Part shown: piece by piece, positions 13,735 to 62,260 of the stretch
Layout of the letters: each line of letters begins with the position of its first letter
How positions within the stretch are numbered: position 1 is the stretch's first letter
From: Pegea sp. RAD2-039
Lineage: Eukaryota > Chordata > Thaliacea > Salpida > Salpidae
Reading direction: 5' to 3'
Assembly: GCA_034620365.1 (NCBI GenBank)
Contig: JAQGEQ010000126.1
Coordinates: 186,001 to 250,000, forward strand
Length of the DNA stretch: 64,000 nucleotides
Notes under the pieces: model-generated
The model's input: only the letters and a program-made list of their open reading frames with translations
What the model was told of the DNA's origin: nothing
Databases searched by the model: none
Position numbers and translations under genes: made by a program

Positions 13735-13932
13735 TTTTATTTTTTTTTTATATATATAAATGCGAAGGAGGGTGCCTAAAGAGAGCACATCTCACTAGCA
13801 CACATTCTCAGGAGTTTTTTATGGTTTTTCTCAGGAGTTTTATATGTCTCTACCTGGGGTCGAACCCGGTACTTCCTAGCTAGATGTACCTTGTAGCTAG
13901 GTGTAGTAACCGCTTCGCCACCAAGCAGGACA
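13735..13932 (-). mobile_element. tRNA-derived SINE with LINE-type 3' tail
   Basis: On the minus strand the element begins near 13932 with a tRNA-like head. It has an A box TGGCGAAGCGG (13920-13910) and a B box GGGTTCGACCC (13867-13857), the normal order and spacing of an internal Pol III promoter. The body then has two ACTCCTGAGAA-type repeats (rc of 13808-13838). It ends in a 3' segment GTGCTCTCTTTAGGCACCCT (rc of 13771-13790) and CCTTCGCATTTATA, then an A-rich tail with TATA at 13735-13760. The same 3' segment lies at the end of LINE sequence at 61533-61590. The element is about 200 bases and looks nearly full length. Confidence 0.8.
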
Positions 13933-13984: not shown

Positions 13985-14960
13985 AACAACAAAATTTCAA
14001 TTCAAAAGGAGCAAACAGTTCTTTTTGATCAACGTAGATAATGTTCTCAGGGTTTGATGTGATAAAAAGATCCAAAGTATTACCACCAATTGGGTTAAAA
14101 AAGCAACCATCTGAGATAGGCTATTGGCATCGAGAAAGCTTACAAAGGCATGACTTAAAATGGCTGAATTAAGGTTACTGCAATCCAAGTTAAATGATTT
14201 TCCCATAAATGCCGAACTCGGGTTATTTCAATCAATCTTACTGAAATTTAAATCTTTCAAAAAATCAGAAAATCTGGACTTTGAGCAATGAAAACCGAAA
14301 GCGATAATCTCAAATCCTGGACAATTAATGGCATCGATCTGAATTCTGGAGATCTTGGGTGCAAGCGACGGTTTGTAAACTACGCAAACACCGCCACCTC
14401 TATCTTACAAGCTGTTACAGCGCAAAGCACCAAAATGGTTAGCGTCAACCAGAAAAGAATCAGGATGCAACGGTTTCAACCAAGTTTCGGTGATAAAAAC
14501 AAATGTGAATTTCCAATTGGAAAATGTTGGTAATAATCGACCGCGCGTTGAAGAACATACCTAATCAAATAGAAGAATTGTCTTTTCGACGCTTGTGAGA
14601 TTTGATGATAGGCTGCTGTAAATTGATATCTTAAGCTGGAAGGATGGTATTCACAACTGTGTGCGGAGATAATCTGAAAAAAGAAGATGGCTATTTGCAA
14701 CTTCCGTTTTTTGAAAAAATCTTGACAATTCTCAAGGCCCATGGTAGACCTCGAACTTTGTATTTGAAATCTGTTGGTTGTTTCTTCTGGTTTCGGTTAT
14801 ACGCCTTTTTTCTAAGCAATCATCTTCACAAATATCATGCAATTTTTTTGTCAAGCCTTAGCTTATATAGCTTGGCAATAAATTTGCGTTTTTCACAAAT
14901 TTCCTGAAATGACACTTTCAACAGTCTTTGATGATCTGAGATTTTTTGCTCAGAAAATGA
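13985..14960 (-). mobile_element. Decayed LINE, APE-type endonuclease region (CR1/Jockey-like)
   Basis: Read on the minus strand in changing frames. ETWLKPLHPDSFLVDANHF-like sequence sits near 14490-14430, GGGVCVVYKPSLAPKISRIQ near 14375-14320, and SHAFVSFLDANSLSQMVAF near 14165-14100. These are the ETWL, GGGV and FLD-L-Q-V-FPT motifs of LINE endonucleases. Frameshifts and stops are frequent. The listed small open frames on either strand here are fragments or shadows of it. Confidence 0.7.
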
Positions 14961-15139
14961 GTGTGACATTCTTTGTAGAGGCATCCAGTTCATCCATTGA
15001 TTTAGACAAACCAATGCAGCGGTTATAGATTTGCTGATGGCTGATAATTAGAATTAGAGTTAGAGGAGGTAGAAGTTAGGCCAATGGTTCTATATTTAAT
15101 GCAATAATTATTTTAAACCCCATTTTCTTCATCTGGTTG

Positions 15140-15285
15140 TTTCCAAAGATATCATAAACTTTCTTGCTCACATCACTACAGGCGAGACAAAATCAGGAAA
15201 GGCATTTAATACACTTCATTGCCGAATCCTCAGCGGAGCAAATTTTATTGCAGGATTGACAATTGCCATTGCAAGCTTGTTTTGA
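15140..15285 (-). mobile_element. LINE ORF1 relic with Cys-rich (PHD-like) finger
   Basis: On the minus strand a Cys-rich stretch reads CNGNCQSCNKICSAEDSAMK, then CIKC, and after one stop CLACSD. The Cys spacing resembles the PHD-type finger found in ORF1 of CR1-group LINEs. It lies 5' of the endonuclease relic at 13985-14960 in the same orientation, as ORF1 should. The two are probably parts of one decayed element spanning 15300 to 13985. Confidence 0.5.
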
Positions 15286-15349
15286 TAAAGTCTGTTTGTC
15301 AGAATTGGACTTTAATTTAGATTTTTTGTACCTCTTTTTGAGCGATATA

Positions 15350-29399: not shown

Positions 29400-29770
29400 C
29401 CCTTTCAGCTTGTGACTAAACGTGATAGGCAAGATTGGCCATTCTTTCCACAGAATTGCTGGGTGACATCGGAAACCTTATCTTCCTGCGCTTCGAGCCA
29501 ATACGCGTACCTGGTTACATTTCTATGGAGTGCTGCGTGATCGTGGAAGCTTTTTCTGTTGTGCCGACTTACAAAAGATGCTGGCGTACTGCTAATGGGA
29601 CTTCTCTGCGTTGCATAATCTGCTGTAAGTTGAAACAGCTGAGTGTTTTGTATACCCAAATATTTCAACGTTGATTTTACTACGTCTTTGTACCTCTTTT
29701 TAGAGCATCTCTGTTTTTTACATTCAGGTGAGAGTTTGACATGAAATACTCTTCATTCTGTAGAAATGAG
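29400..29770 (-). mobile_element. LINE ORF2 C-terminal relic
   Basis: Minus-strand translation from about 29720 gives KRYKDVVKSTLKYLGIQ, then LFQLTADYATQRSPISST and SFVSRHNRKSFHDHAALHRN. This matches the post-RT tail of the LINE type seen at 1-1130 (RYKDTLK, then W--LA-DR--WR, then FE--R). One frameshift lies near 29690. Two listed frames (29405-29668 and 29680-29922) are its pieces. Confidence 0.6.
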
Positions 29771-31350
29771 TGACAAATTGAGGCCTGTTTCGCGTGAATA
29801 TGGTTTCGATGCCGATAACTCAGCTTTAGCAAGCACATTGACATTAAGAACGAAATCAAACCATTCGAAGCTGAGAATGTTTCGAAAATAGCGTTAGTGA
29901 AAACGGCCCTGAAGTTGAACAAATTAGTTCAGAAACCACATTCACGTCATACATACACATGTTTAGTTTTTAGATTTAATTATCAATTAATTGTTCACAA
30001 TAATAAGCAGTTAGATTATAAGAATGATAACTTACTTTGAAGATAACACTTGAATAAACTCCTATATTATCTAAATAGCAAAAAAATTGAAACAGAAACG
30101 CCCACTAAGAATATCACTAAGCAATACCAACAACTAGTTTTTATATTAGAAGCTGACAGTATCGAGGTTTGTTTTTAGATGTTGCCAGTATCAAGACTTG
30201 ATCTCACGTAAATAAAGTCTTTCATCTAAATCGTATTTGGAGCCCTTTGAGTGGTAAACTTTGACAATTAACTAATGAAATCTTCGCTTATAAAACTGAT
30301 CAATTTTGGATTTAAGGTCTTTTCTCGGAGAATTTTTAAGAAAGTCTAGTTGAAGGTTAGTTTTATCTTTTTTGTGTTCACCTGATATTTATCCAGTGGT
30401 CTGATTCAGTAAGTGTTTGAGTTAATGACTTGAAACATTTTATTTATTTATTTATTACAATAAATGTGAAGGAGGGTGCCTAAAGAGAGCACCTCTCGCT
30501 AACACACACTCTCACAACTTAGATCTATTTGACGTAATATGAATCAGATAACTGTTTCTTTATATTAAGAAGCGTATTTAACTAAGCAGGGAGCTAGAGC
30601 TTTCTCAATTACTCAACTTCTTATAAAAAAATTTACTCAGAAACTATCTTAGAAGATAATTGATCAATATGTACTTGTTGGGTGCTTGTAGGCAGCTCGT
30701 CGCTGTACTTATTGTCATCCTGCCAGCTTCTGCGACGCCAGCTGCATCAATTCTGCTATACAACTTATTAGCATGGACAGTGGACCTGCTGCATGGACAA
30801 CATCCAGATTTCTATAACTTCTTTCCTGGCTTATAGCATGACCGTTTTTTGCCGAAGCAGGCCATTCTACTATATATTTACTTAGAATTGTGAGAATTAC
30901 TTATTAATCTCTATCAGAATTATTAAGGAGTTTATTTGACGTTTTATAATAATTTACGAGCTTCAAACAGCAAATTTCTATTTTGCCTATTTGTTTTTTC
31001 AGTAATTAAAAATAGATTTCGCTTTTGATATTCTGATTAACGAGTTTAAGATGTTGGCGCGCTAGTGGTAAGTACCCTAAGCCACTAAGTTTACGATTTA
31101 TTTGTAATCACCTATTAAATCAAATTTATTTTTTGAATGCTACAAAATTTAAACAATTTATTTCAAACTGATGATTTTTAAGAGATGAAAAATGATTGCT
31201 GCTTAATAGAAAGAAGGTAGAAATATAAGATTGCAAAATGTTTACAATTGAAATGAAATTATGATTAGGTTGATGATTGCAAAATAATTCAAGGAACTTA
31301 ATCAGAAAATGTTCTTTTTAATATCTAAGCTATTCTTTTAGAATACAAAA
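29771..31350. other. Repeat debris and SLC51A 3' flank
   Basis: Apart from the shared tail at 30437-30525, I see no gene. 30640-30870 is richer in GC and looks like repeat without a family I can name. 31050-31085 holds an imperfect palindrome (CTAGTGG ... CCACTAAG). Confidence 0.4.
30437..30525 (-). repeat. LINE/SINE shared 3' tail with TTTA run
   Basis: On the plus strand (TTTA)n at 30439-30455 is followed by ACAATAAATGTGAAGGAGGG, TGCCTAAAGAGAGCACCTCT and CGCTAACACACACTCTCAC. This is the same terminal sequence as at 13757-13800 and 61533-61590, so the element's body lies at higher coordinates on the minus strand. No RT-coding sequence is evident beside it; 30640-30870 is unassigned. Confidence 0.65.
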
Positions 31351-37059: not shown

Positions 37060-40000
37060 ATGCCACCCAGCGGGACTGCTTGTAATAAGGTTGGTTTTTG
37101 GTTCAGCAAAAAGAAGAAGAAGAAATTAAGCTGTGATCAGCTTGCGCTTTGTCTTAAGTAAGTTAAATGTCTGAAATTTCACTTTTTTACTTCATGTTAT
37201 TTGATGTTTATGTAACTTTTTCACTTTTATGTTTCAAAGTACATTTTAAATAAATTTTGAAACATTTTTTTGAGTTTTAATTAAAAATTTTTTTTTGATA
37301 TTTCAGAAATTATGGGTTAGAAGCAGTTGAAGTAAGTTTTAACTGATGATGGACTTGGTCATTAAATTGAAATATTTTAGATTGATGTAAGCAGAAGCAT
37401 ATATGAACAAGGTCCTTTTGTTGCTATCATCCATAAGTTTACAGATTTGATTATAGAGTCGAAAAACGGCAACCAATCAGCAGGGGACTTTCTCAACCAA
37501 TTAAAAGTCAGTTCTCTTTCAAAAAGCAACAAAAAATTCAAAATAGTTTCTTTTTTAGGCTTATACAACTGAATATCCTCAACTTATACTAATCGATCCG
37601 TTGGATAAAATCAATGTTCTTTTAAATCGTTATGACACATACAAACTGATAAACGATACCAAAGTATCTTCTAAAGGTTTGATTAGTTGTAACTATATTA
37701 CTTATTTAAAACTTGTTGCTGATAATAGACAGATTTCTTCATGTTCCAAGCTTTGCACAGTTGAGTAGTCGGGACATTGATGATATTAAATCTCAATTAC
37801 GATCTGCAAATGTTCAGTACCCTTTCGGTAAGTTTTATTTTCAAAAATCATTTTTTTAGTTATCTAGAAAAAACGTTTTAGTCTGCATCAGCATTTTGTT
37901 GGTCGCCTCCAGCTTTTGTCATTATATAATAATTGGAATTAATTGTTTTTTGTTTAATGGATTTTTAACTTATAATCTGTGATATTATCAGATTTTTAAT
38001 GAAAATTTGTTTTATTTCTAGTTTGCAAGAAGAATATTTCGCATGGTTCCAAGTCACATAAGGTGGTTGATATCTATCTTTTAAAGATAAAGTTCAAACA
38101 AAATTAAAACTCTTTTAGCAAATTTTGAGAAATTTAAAAATCGCGCGTTAACTCAAACATCAACCGATTATATACAGATGTGTCTGATCTTTAATGAAGA
38201 AGGTCTGAAAGATGTTGACCCTCCAAGTGTTGCACAGACATTTATTGATCATGGAGCTTTACTTTACAAGGTGACATTAAAACTTTTCATTTTCTGTTTT
38301 GATTGAAATTATTCTTTTATTCTAAATGAGATCTCTATAGCGAGATGGTGGAAATTGAACTTGTTAGCTTAGGGTGTGTCTTGGTGTTTTCTTTAACCCA
38401 CAAAACAATTTATGAAAAGAAAATATCTTTTGTATTTCCACTAGCTTCTTTCAGACTAGTTCAACTCTTTTTTACATTATTCACTTTTATTACTGCTGAG
38501 TGTCTAAGCAATGATAAAATGTTACTAAAAATATTTAATACTTAAATTAAAACAACTTTTTTGTCTAAGTTTCTGTTGAAAATTTATTTAACTTTTAAAG
38601 TAATTAAAAAACAAATAATTTTTGAGAAACAAAAATGTTAAGCTTGTGTAGTAGCTAAACGAATCATTTATTTCAATCTAGCACCTTGACTTGTAAAAAC
38701 TCCTCGACCACCAACACCAAGTCAATTATAACTTGTCTTACAAACAAATCTTGTGTTTGGTGGTTGAAGGTGCTGAAGACTCACTTGCTTCTAGCACCTT
38801 GACTTGTAAAAACTCCTCGACCACCAACACCAAGTCAATTATAACTTGTCTTACAAACAAATCTTGTGTTTGGTTGTTGAAGATGCTGAAGACTCGCTTG
38901 CTTCTAGCACCTTGACTTGTAAAAACTCCTCGACCACCAACACCAAGTCAATAATAACTTGTCTTACAAACAAATCTTGTGCTTGGTTGTTGAAGATGCT
39001 GAAGACTCACTTGCTTCTAGCACCTTGACTTGTAAAAACTCCTCGACCAACAACACACAAGTCAATAATAATTTGTCTTACAAACAAATCTTGTGCTTGG
39101 TTGTTGAAGATGCTGAAGACTCACTTGCTTCTAGCACCTTGACTTGTAAAAACTCCTCGACCACCAACACCAAGTCAATTATAACTTGTCTTACAAACAA
39201 ATCTTGTGCTTGGTTGTTGAAGGTGCTGAAGACTCACTTGCTTCTAGCACCTTGACTTGTAAAAACTCCTCGACCACAACACCAAGTCAATACTAACTTG
39301 TCTTACAAACAAATCTTGTGTTTGGTTGTTGAAGATGCTGAAGACTCACTTGCTTCTAGCACCTTGACTTGTAAAAACTCCTCGACCACCAACACCAAGT
39401 CAATTATAACTTGTCTTACAAACAAATCTTGTGCTTGGTTGTTGAAGATGCTGAAGACTCACTTGCTTCTAGCACCTTGACTTGTAAAAACTCCTCGACC
39501 ACAACACCAAGTCAATATAACTTGTCTTACAAACAAATCTTGTGCTTGGTTGTTGAAGATGCTGAAGACTCACTTGCTTCTAGCACCTTGACTTGTAAAA
39601 ACTCCTCGACCACCAACACCAAGTCAATTATAACTTGTCTTACAAACAAATCTTGTGTTTGGTGGTTGAAGGTGCTGAAGACTCACTTGCTTCTAGCACC
39701 TTGACTTGTAAAAACTCCTCGACCAACAACACCAAGTCAATACTAACTTGTCTTACAAACAAATCTTGTGCTTGGTTGTTGAAGGTGCTGAAGACTCACT
39801 TGCTTCTAGCATCTTGACTTGTAAAAACTCCTCGACCACCAACACCAAGTCAATAATAACTTGTCTTACAAACAAATCTTGTGTTTGGTGATTGAAGGTG
39901 CTGAAGACTCACTTGCTTCTAGCACCTTGACTTGTAAAAACTCCTCGACCAACAACACCAAGTCAATTATAACTTGTCTTACAAACAAATCTTGTGCTTG

Positions 40001-41711
40001 GTTGTTGAAGATGCTGAAGACTCACTTGCTTCTAGCACCTTGACTTGTAAAAACTCCTCGACCAACAACACCAAGTCAATAATAACTTGTCTTACAAACA
40101 AATCTTGTGTTTGGTTGTTGAAGATGTTGAAGACTCACTTGCTTGTAGCACCTTGACTTGTAAAAAATACTCGGCCACCAACACCAAGTCAATTATAACT
40201 TGTCTTACAAACAAATCTTGTGTTTGGTGATCCAGGGTGCTGAGGACTCTCCTTTTACTGGCAGTTCTTATTTATACTAGCTGCTAGAAACTGAGATTAT
40301 TTCAAATCATCCAATTATGAAATCTTTTTTTAATGTTCATTTGAGTTGCTTGTTGAACTATTAGGAAGGTTTATCATTTCACAAAATAATTATTCTTCAA
40401 GTTAGAAACCTCATTCTTTTTACATTCACCAACTACTTAGTGAATTTTTAAACAAATTTTAAGCTTTTTCAAACTGAGGTTTTTTTTCTTTATTCTCAAA
40501 ATAACCTTGTCTCAATTTCAATGAATTTCTTCAAAACGTATTTTTAGAAACTTTTAAACTTACTTTCGCGCGCTGAATGACTCGTCACTTCTTCTTCTTC
40601 AGATTTATGTAATTGGTGACAAATACCACATGGTGGAACGACCATCGCTACGAAATTTTGCCAAAGATTGTTACAAGGATCACCAAACTATATTCTTTCA
40701 TTCTCACGACATATCCAGTGGGGAGTCTTTGAGATCCGAACTTACAACGGTTTGTAGAAGTTTCTACTCGAGTATTTAGTCGATGGATTTATGTGGGTTC
40801 AGTTGAAACCACTTTCTCCTCATCGCTAAACAGTTCTAACAAAATTTTTTGTTTGTTTATATCTAAAGTTTTATTTTTGATTCAATTGTCAGATTTGAAA
40901 CTAAATCAGTTAAATTATTCACTTTGAAGTATTTGGTGACAGTGAAACAAAAATAAATCGTCTAATACAATTCCTCTCACTACTTTCTCATATTTGTTCA
41001 AATCCCAACTTTGTTTGTTCTTTAACTTCACTCAAATATTTGAAAATATTTTTGTTTGATAAAAAATCAATAAAATCTATAAATCGGCGGAGTTTTTCTC
41101 TCAAATCTTCCATATTTTATTGGCTGAATTTTAAATATTCTTTTTTAGCTGGATGCTGATGAATCAACTCCGAGATCTTCCATCAACAACTCGATCATCA
41201 ACAATCTCATCAAACAGCTCAGTGTTGAGATCAAGATGACGATGTTCGGGATCGATGTGATTGTGTGTCCTCAAACTCAAAAACATTATGTGATTGATGT
41301 AAACGTTTTTCCAGGTTCAAAACATTTTAGTAAATTGTTTTGCTTCAATTTTTCGTTTACTAGTTTTAGTAACAAATATATATAAACTGTTACAATATAA
41401 TTTTATTATTATTTGATTATTATCAGCATTTTATGTTAATATTTATTTATTCACTTTCTCGACTAATTTAGCTTTTGTAAAGATTTCGAGTCAGAAAGTC
41501 TCATCTTCGCACAAATCTTTGAATCTTTGAAATTGAGTTTTCTGTCAGCAAATATTAAGAAATTTTTCATTTATTTGAAGGTTACGACGGAGTGAAAAAT
41601 TATTTGGAAATACTTTCCGAAAATATTTCACAGCGAGCATTTGCTATTAACAAGAACGGTACAAGCCACAAAGTTGATAAATTGTCTAATGGAGATTCTA
41701 CTCGATTGTGA
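37060..41711 (+). CDS. ITPK1: Inositol-tetrakisphosphate 1-kinase, 10 exons, complete
   Basis: Cytosolic ATP-grasp kinase/phosphatase acting on Ins(3,4,5,6)P4 and Ins(1,3,4)P3, on the route to InsP5 and InsP6. Exons: 37060-37157, 37307-37331, 37381-37506, 37559-37676, 37729-37827, 38022-38062, 38178-38270, 40603-40749, 41149-41314, 41581-41711. They sum to 1044 bases, 347 residues, in frame. The start MPPSGTACNKVGFWFS matches the family VGYWLSEKK motif; here a run of six lysines follows. NRYDTYKLI, CKKNISHGSKSHK and IDHGALLYK match the ATP-grasp lobes. The metal ligands Asp285 (FGIDVIV), Asp299 and Asn301 (VIDVNVFPGYDG) are all kept. The long disordered tail of vertebrate ITPK1 (414 residues) is absent. 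Intron 7 (38271-40602) carries a minisatellite. Confidence 0.95.
38678..40260. repeat. 113-base minisatellite, about 14 units, in ITPK1 intron 7
   Basis: Unit starts (CTAGCACCTTGACTTG) fall at 38678, 38791, 38904, 39017, 39131, 39244, 39356, 39469, 39580, 39693, 39806, 39919, 40032 and 40145. Spacing is 113 bases except four units of 111-114. Units differ by a few substitutions (GGTGCT or GATGCT; GTTTGG or GCTTGG; ACCACC or ACCAAC). The last unit is the most diverged and breaks off near 40260. Each unit contains nested inverted arms, in unit 1 at 38757-38767 with 38817-38827 and 38769-38774 with 38793-38798. Small open frames of about 60 and 97 residues arise because each frame stays open across one or two units; 113 is not a multiple of 3, so this is not a coding repeat. 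Confidence 0.95.
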
Positions 41712-41779: not shown

Positions 41780-42465
41780 ACAACTTGACAATTTTGTTGT
41801 TTTATGAAATCATTCTTAACAACTTTTCAATAATTATTTTAAATCGACAGAAATTCAGTTTTAGACTTTTTATAAAACTTTAATTCTTAAATACTCTCAA
41901 CTAGACGAATTGTTAATATATTTTTGTATTATATAACTGAAATGAAAATTACCAAGCGAAAATTATCAAATTAAACTAGCTTCAAATAAATAAGAAAATA
42001 AACTTGATCTTCTATAACCTTCCAACTTTCTGGAAAGAATCAGATTTTGTAGTAGAAGCTTATATCAAAAAGAAATTGTTTTCTTCTATGAGATGCCTCT
42101 ATCATCCAACTTGCCTTCATCTACCAACCATTCAACAAAATTAAAATGATTTTTCTAAACTTTATACTAGTAGTAGAGCTCATCAAAAAACATAACGTTG
42201 CCAGAAATCATGTTGGCAATTCATCAACATCCTTTCCAAAATCACTAGATAGGGAAATTCAAAATTGGATTTAAATTTTAGTGAAATATTTTATGAATAT
42301 TTTAGTTGTTAATTTTGAGTAAAAAAAGCTATATTTCATTAAATTTCTCAATTCAACAAAAAATATTTTTACCCTCATAACGTCAAGCTAATTTTCAGGC
42401 ATTAATTGAAACTTATTTCTAGATTAAAAAGATAGATTAAACTTACAGCCATCATGAAAGTAATA
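41780..42465. other. Intergenic after ITPK1
   Basis: AT-rich, nothing recognisable before the LINE relic at 42470. Confidence 0.4.
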
Positions 42466-42469
42466 CTCT

Positions 42470-42965
42470 TTGTAACATCATATACCTCGATTTTGCTAAA
42501 GCGTTTGATTCTGTCCCACACAACAAACTCATTATTGTTTTACAAAATTTTAAAGTCAACAGATTTATCCTAAAGTGCATTGAAGATTACTTATCAGGTA
42601 GAATCCAACAAACTCGTGTTAAAAGATCTTTATCTACTCCTAGTTAAGTCACCAATGGTGTTACTCAGGGTTCCGCTCTGGGTCCCCTTCTCTTTATAAT
42701 TTTCATTGAAGACTTCGTCAGAAGACTAGTAGCAGTAGATGTTGTCAGTGTGTTTGTGTATGCAGATGGAATCAAGCTATTATCTTGCAATCCTTCAAAC
42801 TGCACTGCGCACTGTAGAAAACTGGTTTATGAACTGGCAGCTCAGAATCCAGCCCAAAAAGTTTGAACTTATAACTTTCTCCCATAAACCAACTACTAAT
42901 TCCTTGAACCAATATTCCATCAATAAATTTGTTATTCCAAAATTTTTTACTTTATTACATACATA
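42470..42965 (+). mobile_element. LINE reverse transcriptase fragment
   Basis: Plus-strand translation gives YLDFAKAFDSVPHNKLI (RT motif A), then EDYLSGRIQQTRV. After one stop come TNGVTQGSALGPLLFIIFIE (motif B region) and VYADGIKLLS (motif C, with the second catalytic Asp changed to Gly). Two frameshifts precede the end. CR1/Jockey type, truncated at both ends and inactive. Confidence 0.85.
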
Positions 42966-44470: not shown

Positions 44471-44649
44471 TAATATCACACGTGTATAGTGAAAATAATA
44501 TCAGAGTAAATTATTTAAAAACAAGGAAATTCTGAAATAAGTAGAATTTTTGAAAACTTCATTAGATATGATTTTAAAACTTTAAAATTTTATAAGAGAA
44601 AAATAATCAGAGTTAAAAAATTATAATTGTGGCAGAATTAAAGCAATCC

Positions 44650-44775
44650 AAATTCAGCGTGAACAACACGAGAGAGTCTGACATAACAATATCTGATGGC
44701 AACTGGCTTCAAGTATTGATTGTGCGGTATGATAGAAAATTTGCTCTGATTACCAGGTACAAAATCCAAGTACAA
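44650..44775 (-). mobile_element. LINE ORF2 3' relic (same family as 61640-62260)
   Basis: Shares ATTGTGCGGTATGA, TTGCTCTGA and ACCAGGTAC with 61813-61860 in the same order and orientation. Short and decayed. Confidence 0.5.
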
Positions 44776-52047: not shown

Positions 52048-55000
52048 TCAGTAAACGTCGAGACTTCGAACCTTGCCGTCGGCGTTGTCAGTGGACTTTT
52101 TGCCCGAACGCTTCGATCTCAAATCTGCAAATAGAAGATGAAGATGAGAAGAGCTTCAAAGATCACCTGAGACTGACAATTCTTGGGTAATGACGGAAGC
52201 TTGTGAAGATTGGATGACGTGATGCTCTTTAGAGTGAGTTTTGATGATTTCAGGATCTTCTTTGGAGTGTTTGGGGATTCCTTCGAGAGTTTGTCAGCGC
52301 TGAAATTAGTTGTCACAGAAGTTAGAGGTTTGCGGAGCATCACTTAAATAATTTCGTTTCGAATTTCATTTTTTTAATTTATTTTGTCGTTTTATATTCA
52401 CTTATACCTCTGCAGTGTTTCTACATCAATTATGTTAATTCATCATACTTAAGACCTTTATCTTTCTTAAATCATTTTGTATCTATTCGATATGAGATCT
52501 AAAAAATTTGTCACCAGCAGCCAATTGTTGATTATAATAATAAGCTAGGAGAAAAAAGAATCCTTGAATGGATATTTTTGACTCAAACACAATTTAATAA
52601 TGAATTGAAAAGAATGAAACAATATTTCAAGAAATTAGTTTGAAACACTATAAAAAGCCACCAAGAATATTCTGTTTAATTTCAATCTTAAAAAAAGAAT
52701 TTGGATTCAAATTAAGTTTAAAAGTATTATTATTAGATTTGTAAACTAACAAATCGAACAATTGAAGATTATTTTCTTATTTCGATATCTGATTTCTGCC
52801 GCGCTGTGGTTAAAACCTTTTAAAGAAATAATTGGAAATTAGAAGCTAACCAATCATGCATATATGCATCAACTTAGCTTCAAACAGAGAAAGAAAATAA
52901 GATTTTAAAATGATCAGGAAGATTAGACTCACTAGAAAAGATCAGAGACATTTTCTTCATTTGAATCAGGATTTCTAGATTCCTGCACCTTCCTTGAAGA
53001 TGCTGAAAAAAAGAAAACTTATTTGAAGAAGATATGAGTTTGATTATAGAATTGAAATTATAAGTTCTGAGTAAAACACCATCCTACCCCGGCACCGCCC
53101 ACATTCTTAAAGAGACTCGAGGACGCCTTAGGGCGCGATCAAATTTTTAATTGACCTTTGTAAGCTGTAGATGGAAGAATCACCCTTTCTGTCAGCGTAT
53201 GAGCTTTAAGTATTGTGGAGTGTAGCGCACACTGAACTAATCCTACTCTTTAGATCCTGATTGCTGGGTGACGAGGCCCAGTGACCTCAAAGCCAACAGA
53301 TTGTGGACTTTCTATCTAGGTCTACAAACATACCAGCAACTACAAGACAACTATTCTATCGAGCAACTAATTACAATTTACAAGCCTTTTTCGGGTAACT
53401 TTTTAATCATTTAATCAGATTGAAAAAAACAATTTTCAATTTCAAATGTAGATGGCACTAACCTGACATGTTAGCTTGAGACTTATTAGTTGTCAATTGG
53501 GAATCCTCTCTACGAGGGATGTAGTCAGCAGAAACATCTTCATTTTGATGTCTCCATTTATGTAAACGGATAGATTGAGCTGTAGCAGCGGTTCTGGTGT
53601 TACTGTTAGCACGTCCAAGAATGGGTGTCACCGCATATGATAGATTATGAGGGAGGTTTTCCGATTTGAATTTGTGTTCATATCCAGTTGTGTTGATGAT
53701 TGCGTTACAGAATGTCATTAACTGAAAGCAGACGTTTGTGAGTTAACTGGTGATGAGGTATTTATTTGAAGACTTTTATCAATTATTTATCAATTTGAGA
53801 TCTTTAGTAGGCTAGTAGCAAAACTGGTAAATTTTAAACTTTCAGAAACTAATTTTTCGGTTTCAAACATTTCAAGTAGAAATCAATTTTTCTTGCAGAG
53901 AAATAAATTGATAAGAATGAAAAAAGAAAAGTTTTTATTGAAACCAGTTGACAATTGGCTTTATCAAAGTTCAAGTCCAGTTTCAAAGGACGACTTAGTC
54001 TACTTGAAAAAGTTTTCAAACAAAAATACCAAAAATTAAGAAGATTTACAGAAAGTGAGTAATAGAAATTATTGATTTAAGTAAAAAATTTAGATTCAAA
54101 CAAAAAAACTTCACTTTCGAACTGAATTTAAACAGATTTCATTGACAATAACAAGAGACTAAAACTCTTAAAATAAAACCAACAACTTTAGATTTTAGTT
54201 ACTTTAGGTTCCAAGTTCAAATTTGCTGCAACTGAAACTGCTTTCACGACTTCTTTCCCACTTTGCTTGTGACCATTATAGATAGCATAGTGGATCGATT
54301 GAAGGATTGGTAGGAAAAGATCTACTTCCAGAGGAACACGCCGGAAGTTATCGTGACTGGAAAGTAAACATTTGAAGATTTGTATTGACTTGATAGCTTG
54401 AAGAGTGATTGATGTTGTTTTACTATATCAATTAAATTGATATTGAGGCAGTTTTTAGCACCTTAAACCCTCCAAGTATAATTTCTGCCATGGATAACCT
54501 CTAGTTGATAAATAATGACTGACACGACACAATAAACTCAAAGATGCTTGTTGTAGTTCAGCTACCCACTCAAAGTAGGTTTTCATTAAAATACCAAAAA
54601 TCTGCGAAAAATTAAAACGTGAATTGAATCAGAAGTAAAAAGTTAAATGCTTGTTACTTTTGCTCGATTAGAAGCTGTTATTTTTGAGTATTGCTTGGCA
54701 GAGCTTACAATGATGTAATCTGTCTGTCGACGTTGCGTATCTAACAAGTTTTCCATATAAGGGTACTGCAGATAAAATCATTTTAAATAAAAGTTAATAC
54801 TTAATAAAGTGTAATTAAGTTAACAAGTTTATTATAATTATACTTAAAACTTTCATAAATCATAAAAATGTGTGTTAGAGAAAGGTCACCTCCTTCGCGT
54901 TTATTGTAATAAATGTAAAAAAGCATTTATTTTGCATTTGATGTTCTATTACTCATCATAGTTTTATCATTTTATTTATATAACTTATAATTATTTATAT

Positions 55001-60940: not shown

Positions 60941-61532
<592 letters not shown>

Positions 61533-62260
61533 CAATAAATGCAAAGGAGGGTGCCTGAAAAGAGCGCTCTCGCTAACACAGACTCTCACAAATAACATCT
61601 ATTAAGTTACAAATACAGAAAGCAAAAGATATAATACATGTCATTTTGGTAGTCCTCAAAGCATATACAGTGAACATATAATTATAGTAATATTTAAAAA
61701 AGGAAAAATTGACAGTTTAGGAACGGCAATGTTGACAATATTATAACGGTTCAACTTCTTCTTAAACAACGCGAGTGATTCTGACAATGTCTGTTGGCAG
61801 CTGGTTCCATGTACTAATTGTGCGGTATGAAAAAAAATTGCTCTGACCAATGTACCAGGTGATATAGGGTTATTAAGGTGTGATGTGTGTCATCTGAGTT
61901 AGCATAACTTGAGGGAAGGACTAATGGAAAAGAAGTCATCAAACTGAAGGTCAATTAAATTGTTGATATATTTAAAAATAAGGATTAAGTCGTATTTAAC
62001 TCGTCAAACTTCCAAAGTATCTAAATTGAAGAAACTGAGACGATGTTTATAACTATCGTATTTAATATTAAGTTTCTTGCATATGAACCTCGTAAATGTC
62101 GCCTGAACAGACTCGATTTTTTTTAGCTCACAAAAAATAATTATTACTTTTACCCTTGAAAAACACTGTATGCCACTCATCTTACAAATAAATTGTTTTG
62201 CAAACATATAGTCAACTTATTTCTATATAGTGAAACTATTGCAGATGGTAAATATAATGA
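61533..62260 (-). mobile_element. LINE 3' portion: ORF2 terminus plus 3' UTR
   Basis: Minus-strand translation gives ESVQATFTRFICKKLNIKYD, SYKHRLSFFNLDTLEVRR, KYDLILIFKYINNLIDL, FDDFFSISPSLKL, a frameshift, then VRAIFFHTAQL and QTLSESLALFKKKLNRYNIV. This is the post-RT end of a CR1/Jockey-type ORF2 (RRFTRFI, YDSY--RL--LNLDTLE-RR---DLI, LP-SI-SL--FK--L). The 3' UTR runs to 61533 and carries the terminal GTTAGCGAGAGCGCTCTTTT and CAGGCACCCTCC shared with the SINE at 13735. Decayed, but younger-looking than the other relics. Confidence 0.8.

Follow-up and report, generated by a model that had tools for sequence, protein, structure and literature searches.

A SINE and a LINE of the salp Pegea sp. 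RAD2-039 that share a 3' core and differ in their terminal sequences

SINEs and LINEs that share a 3' tail occur as pairs in many organisms, and the members of the eel pair UnaSINE/UnaL2 share their terminal repeat. In zebrafish, the LINEs ZfL2-1 and ZfL2-2 need their tail hairpins to retrotranspose, and it is through the region between the endonuclease and the reverse transcriptase that the protein of ZfL2-2 binds the hairpin of its own tail (PMC4176376, in part). A survey of 58 SINE/LINE pairs found the CR1 and RTE clades to predominate and lists, under Protostomes, mosquito Gecko with an I-type LINE (PMC3747384, in part). We describe here a SINE and a LINE from the genome of the salp Pegea sp. 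RAD2-039 that have the same 3' core and differ in the bases that follow it.

The SINE was recognized in a 64,000-nucleotide window, the whole stretch of DNA that was analyzed (contig JAQGEQ010000126.1, positions 186,001 to 250,000; assembly GCA_034620365.1), and was followed through the genome from which the window comes (105.7 Mb, 387 contigs). An earlier note, drawn from the window by itself, had placed a tRNA-derived SINE with A and B boxes at 13735-13932. A minus-strand SINE is present at that position, with its body running from 13931 to 13755, and both boxes agree with no mismatch with the consensus (Table 1). A pair of boxes as good as this one arose in 0 of 200,000 mononucleotide shuffles of the SINE head, and no other box A and box B pair at tRNA-like spacing was found in the window when both strands were scanned. 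Measured from start to start, the boxes are 54 bases apart in the main form of the SINE and 44 bases apart in a short form. ARAGORN predicted no tRNA in 50 SINE heads, Rfam returned no match to the head at E values up to 1 in six loci, and the head was dissimilar to six sampled tRNA genes, a small sample in which to seek the source tRNA. Since the boxes and their spacing fit and the ARAGORN, Rfam, and tRNA comparisons are negative, a Pol III promoter in the head is supported, with transcription itself predicted, and descent from a tRNA is likely, as judged only from the two boxes and the distance between them. Of the earlier description as tRNA-derived, the boxes and the tRNA-like spacing therefore stand, and a match to ARAGORN, Rfam, or the six sampled tRNAs does not accompany them.

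The SINE family is variable between the head and the core. A form with a shorter middle, and with the 44-base box spacing that is like that of a tRNA, is seen in L072, L111, L113, L115, L116, L108, and several other copies; the main form may have arisen from it by an insertion. The main form also has a direct duplication of ACTCCTGAGAA between the head and the core, and one unit instead of two is found there in L073, L074, L081, L112, L118, and L120.

A genome search with the SINE produced 41 matches (40 scored of 1,767 first-look candidates), of which 40, the window copy included, cover 191 to 198 of the 198 bases at 96 to 100% identity and 1 is partial. The genome has 180 exact occurrences of a 17-base word containing box A, and the reversed control has 0. 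The consensus of 30 fetched copies has a body of 177 bases and, after it, an A-rich tail; the body is identical to the consensus in 8 of these copies and differs by at most 1.7% in the rest. The 30 are the best matches to the window copy and so are biased toward young copies, and they therefore establish that young copies exist without informing the average age of the family. Near-identical copies are found in the SINE and the LINE families alike, and both hence include recent copies. SINEs inserted in two LINE copies (L002 and L006) have duplications of about 4 to 6 bases when compared with the uninterrupted LINE. Across 28 of the 30 SINE copies (L023 and L024 were left out because their start was not located by the script), the mean best match for a target-site duplication was 5.2, versus 4.9 when permuted, with 46 of 500 permutations as high, so that the excess is not significant; long target-site duplications were looked for, and none were found.

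The 54 bases that directly precede the terminal run of the SINE consensus agree with the LINE tail consensus at 51 of 54 positions. The match extends from GAGAATGTGTG to CATTTAT, and in local alignment the SINE consensus reaches a score of 117 with the LINE tail consensus, whereas none of 1,000 mononucleotide shuffles scored above 31. The segment common to the SINE and the LINE relic had been put at roughly 45 bases; the sharing holds (117 against at most 31), and the length is revised to 54 to 55 bases. In some SINE copies, such as L108 (TTGTGAGAATG), the similarity to the LINE reaches a few bases further in the 5' direction. An anchored tail pattern was found in 585 places genome-wide and in 0 places in the reversed control; among the 100 of the 585 that were listed, 98 tails were classified by two core positions, 27 as SINE type and 71 as LINE type.

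In 65 of the 100 box A matches listed of the 180, the exact tail word follows at the distance expected (matched by eye; genome-wide, the word was found 106 times). The 35 other listed copies were all fetched, and each was scored against 200 shuffles: 25 keep at least 45 core bases, 6 keep a part (L069, L078, L079, L080, L123, and L124), and 4 have none (L070, L075, L117, and L119). The core is thus kept whole or in part in 96 of the 100 SINE copies listed of 180. Copies without the segment, for which the search was made, are 4 of the 100 listed, and the refuting outcome named in the earlier note, a SINE that lacks the segment genome-wide, did not occur. L075, L117, and L119 break into other sequence ahead of the core. 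In L070, the head leads directly into the TATATATA/A-rich end, without the core, and L078 and L079 are one sequence at two places in which the inner hairpin is deleted. The core is unchanged in 20 of the 30 young SINE copies and lies in the same place in all 30 of the copies closest to that in the window.

In the LINE locus L061, both reading frames are open, with an ORF1 of 331 residues and an ORF2 frame that measures 1,024 residues between stops and has its first Met at residue 10; the core starts 87 bases past the ORF2 stop. A short LINE peptide had no Pfam match; the whole ORF2 was matched, with RVT_1, PF14529, and PF03372 as the only domains at E values up to 0.1 and no match to RNase H at that threshold. 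ORF1 (P0002) has, by eye, a C4HC3-type Cys/His spacing like that of a zinc finger, and the Pfam entry PHDvar_NSD matched it at an E value of 0.014, under the cutoff. The best solved-structure matches of the LINE reverse transcriptase are R2 and L1 proteins. ORF2 has an APE-type endonuclease and a reverse transcriptase without RNase H, a set that suits the CR1/L2 group and other groups too; judged by its features, the LINE fits the CR1/L2 group. Of 150 scored RVT_1 matches (1,243 candidates), 30 lie in a 1,024-residue open frame, 2 of them with an internal stop (counted by eye), and the LINE is apparently still active or was so recently.

The 3' ends of 20 LINE copies were sampled from the 28 stop-free long frames, L061 excluded. 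In all 20, the core lies at the same distance from RVT_1 as in L061; 19 follow the exact pattern and then continue with TGTAATAAATAAATAAA, and the other, L086, is one base off at the end of the core. Every one of the 31 loci from L031 to L061, 30 of which were fetched by a query containing the tail, also has the core at the 3' end of the LINE. The core is the genuine 3' end of the LINE.

Several pieces of this LINE lie in the window with the SINE (Table 1). The LINE relic that the earlier note had drawn at 61533-62260 exists, with bounds corrected to 61508-62134: family members match it at 84 to 87% over about 600 bases, and 62135-62260 is unmatched by other copies of the family, the matches outside the window beginning at query base 127 or later. 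The (TTTA)148 array that adjoins the relic would be its terminal (TAAA)n, much expanded. A tail noted at 30437-30525 does carry the segment, with the full core at 30460-30513, and one noted at 54876-54925 has both ends of the segment (54867-54914) and is missing the hairpin between them. The tails from which the inner hairpin is cleanly missing (54867-54914, L078, and L079) look like the outcome of reverse transcription or repair that skipped over a folded stem. The window also holds a 113-base tandem repeat at 38677-40228 (13.8 copies, 96% matches) and, on the minus strand at 29405-29752, an open frame that may resemble the conserved end of another retroelement-type protein.

Table 1. Parts of the SINE and pieces of the LINE in the window (positions are those of the window)
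Feature	Position	Strand	Details
SINE body	13755..13931	-	177 nt; 98.9% identity to consensus of 30 genomic copies
SINE A-rich terminal tail, not (TAAA)n	13735..13754	-	
Box A TGGCGAAGCGG	13910..13920	-	0 mismatches to TGGCNNAGYGG; sole window site paired with box B
Box B GGTTCGACCCC	13856..13866	-	0 mismatches to GGTTCGANNCC
54-nt core common to SINE and LINE 3' end	13756..13809	-	92.6% identity to LINE core (window copy)
LINE fragment: ORF1 and endonuclease part of ORF2	14009..15306	-	tblastn P0001, P0002
Young LINE copy, 5'-truncated: last 97 nt, core and terminal repeat	30439..30535	-	96.9% identity to L061 4449-4545
LINE fragment: reverse transcriptase part of ORF2, residues 644-816	42442..42957	+	
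LINE fragment: C-terminal part of ORF2	44587..44752	-	
LINE tail remnant, hairpin missing	54867..54914	+	20-nt and 16-nt core pieces flank gap; 26-nt match to LINE end
(TTTA)148 array adjoining LINE relic	60941..61532	.	592 bases, Tandem Repeats Finder, 100% matches
LINE 3'-end relic: ORF2 residues 884-1024, 3' UTR, and start of terminal repeat	61508..62134	-	76% identity to L061 3953-4550; tblastn P0001
Core ending LINE relic	61535..61587	-	88.9% identity to LINE core

The SINE and the LINE part immediately after the core. Following CATTTAT, each of the 19 young LINE copies continues with TG TAA and (TAAA)n, that is, with a TTG(TAAA)n end, whereas the SINE continues with ATATATA and then an A-rich stretch. 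Tails were taken from loci L001 to L081; a script sorted 33 as SINE and 30 as LINE, and L028, L071, L073, and L080, which are SINE copies with a changed core, were moved by eye from LINE to SINE. All 37 SINE tails so classified end in TATATATA and an A-rich stretch. A start of ATA after CATTTAT is found in 37 of 37 SINE tails versus 0 of 26 LINE tails, and a start of TG is found in 23 of the 26 LINE tails. The division is not a clean one, for within 45 bases only 14 of the 26 LINE tails, many of which are older, have TAAATAAA, and 4 of the 37 SINE tails have it too. A run of at least 8 A's lies within 45 bases in 20 of 33 SINE tails. The last bases of the SINE include TATATATAAAA. With ATA at the start of every one of the 37 SINE tails and of none of the 26 LINE tails, the expectation that both elements end in the same tetranucleotide fails, the LINE ending in TTG(TAAA)n and the SINE in TATATATA and an A-rich stretch. 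The TTTA-type tail attributed to the SINE is likewise replaced by ATATATA and an A-rich stretch; the (TTTA)n array is that adjoining the LINE relic. An exact-word genome search for a LINE-type core start joined to a SINE-type end gave three places, of which L108 and L110 are SINE copies and L109 is a LINE copy.

For the LINE tail, a long hairpin is predicted, with a z score of -3.1 in the older form and -4.0 in the young form, and 0 of 200 shuffles were as good in either. The fold of the SINE consensus tail has a z score of -1.4, with 17 of 200 shuffles as good, and the basal pair of the inner stem is lost in the SINE tail. In a covariation analysis of 52 distinct LINE tails, 296 of 312 cells were paired, and 254 of 2,000 column shuffles were as good; the most variable hairpin pair gave Fisher P values of 0.20 and 0.44. 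With the LINE fold strong, the SINE fold weaker, and no support from covariation, a hairpin in the shared tail is plausible as a predicted fold.

The SINE is a short non-autonomous retroposon, very probably copied by the LINE via the shared 3' tail, with recognition through the core. The proposal that the SINE borrows the reverse transcriptase of the LINE through this tail, which had been made from the window, gains genome-wide support from the core in 96 of the 100 listed SINE copies and 20 of 20 LINE copies. Transcription by Pol III would start from the promoter inside the SINE, the ORF2 protein of the LINE would recognize the hairpin of the shared tail in the SINE RNA as it would in its own RNA, and ORF2 would then nick the target DNA, the SINE being copied by target-primed reverse transcription. 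Binding and mobilization of the SINE by ORF2 are suggested by analogy to UnaL2 and ZfL2. As the two families end in different bases, it is probably the core that governs recognition, and a particular terminal repeat would be needed little or not at all. The mismatch of the termini offers a natural experiment on the portion of the tail that the LINE reverse transcriptase needs. It is possible, and we propose it tentatively, that the reverse transcriptase needs only the internal core and that the SINE has drifted from (TAAA)n to its TATATATA/A-rich end and still spreads; if that is true, core recognition is separable from terminal-repeat priming in a natural system.

The main alternative to core-only recognition is a sublineage of the same LINE, minor or past, that ends in CATTTATATATAAAA and is the true partner of the SINE, the abundant (TAAA)n LINE being a sister that does not mobilize it. 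L109 (C228:16422-16482), which by eye has an ORF2 end and has the LINE 3' UTR and the end CATTTATATATAAAATC, speaks for such a sublineage, as does the SINE core, which at some positions is as in the older LINE form and at others as in the younger. Two of the three places found in the search for SINE-type ends are, however, SINE copies (L108 and L110; the exact word misses diverged copies), L109 may have come to end at CATTTAT in an AT-rich target by chance, and such an end is present in 0 of the 20 sampled LINE copies with long open frames; we regard the existence of this partner as unlikely. Quite improbable is mobilization by a different, relaxed LINE that recognizes poly(A) and would act on the A-rich end of the SINE, leaving the core as a passive relic of its origin. 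The A-rich runs that end SINE tails (at least 8 A's in 20 of 33) and L070, which has kept its TATATATA/A-rich end without the core, would agree with such a LINE, but the core is whole or partial in 96 of the 100 listed SINE copies and unchanged in 20 of the 30 young ones. Sequence similarity by itself does not give the direction of the transfer, and the LINE might have gained its 3' end from the SINE; against this, LINE-type tails are the commoner (71 versus 27 of the 98 classified among those listed), and the core is at the LINE 3' end in all 31 loci from L031 to L061 (30 via the tail-containing query), so that we consider it very doubtful and infer a direction from LINE to SINE. Only the view of a single window would leave room for the reading that an unrelated repeat inserted next to each of the two elements and supplied the segment. 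This reading is refuted: all 20 sampled LINE copies with long open frames carry the segment in one position, as the 3' end of the LINE itself, and in the SINE it likewise holds one position in all 30 of the closest copies.

With the SINE taken as copied by the LINE through their shared core, the pair can be set beside those already described. Words of 15 and 16 bases from the SINE and the LINE had no match in the literature searched, and topic searches gave no title or abstract start that names this pair, with most subscription journals outside both searches. Unless it is listed in SINEBase, Repbase, or Dfam, the pair is new, and its arrangement is already known. The published list of SINE/LINE pairs is modest, and this one extends it by a young, apparently active pair whose two members occur together in one small genome. 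Like the present LINE, whose tail hairpin is predicted, the zebrafish L2-clade stringent-type LINEs ZfL2-1 and ZfL2-2 have a hairpin in the 3' tail, and in the eel pair UnaSINE/UnaL2, likewise of the L2-clade stringent type, such a tail is shared with a SINE (PMC4176376, in part). The present pair differs from UnaSINE/UnaL2 in that its SINE and LINE end in different terminal sequences. With the surveyed pairs it has in common a Pol III-type SINE with a LINE-derived 3' end, and its partner is CR1/L2-like by features (PMC3747384, in part). The tobacco TS SINE and a potato RTE-clade LINE resemble it in the long 3' end that they share, but those two both end in a TTG repeat, whereas the SINE and the LINE here differ (PMC3747384, in part). 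The pair is a classical SINE/LINE tail-sharing arrangement, in which the mismatch of the termini is the one unusual detail.
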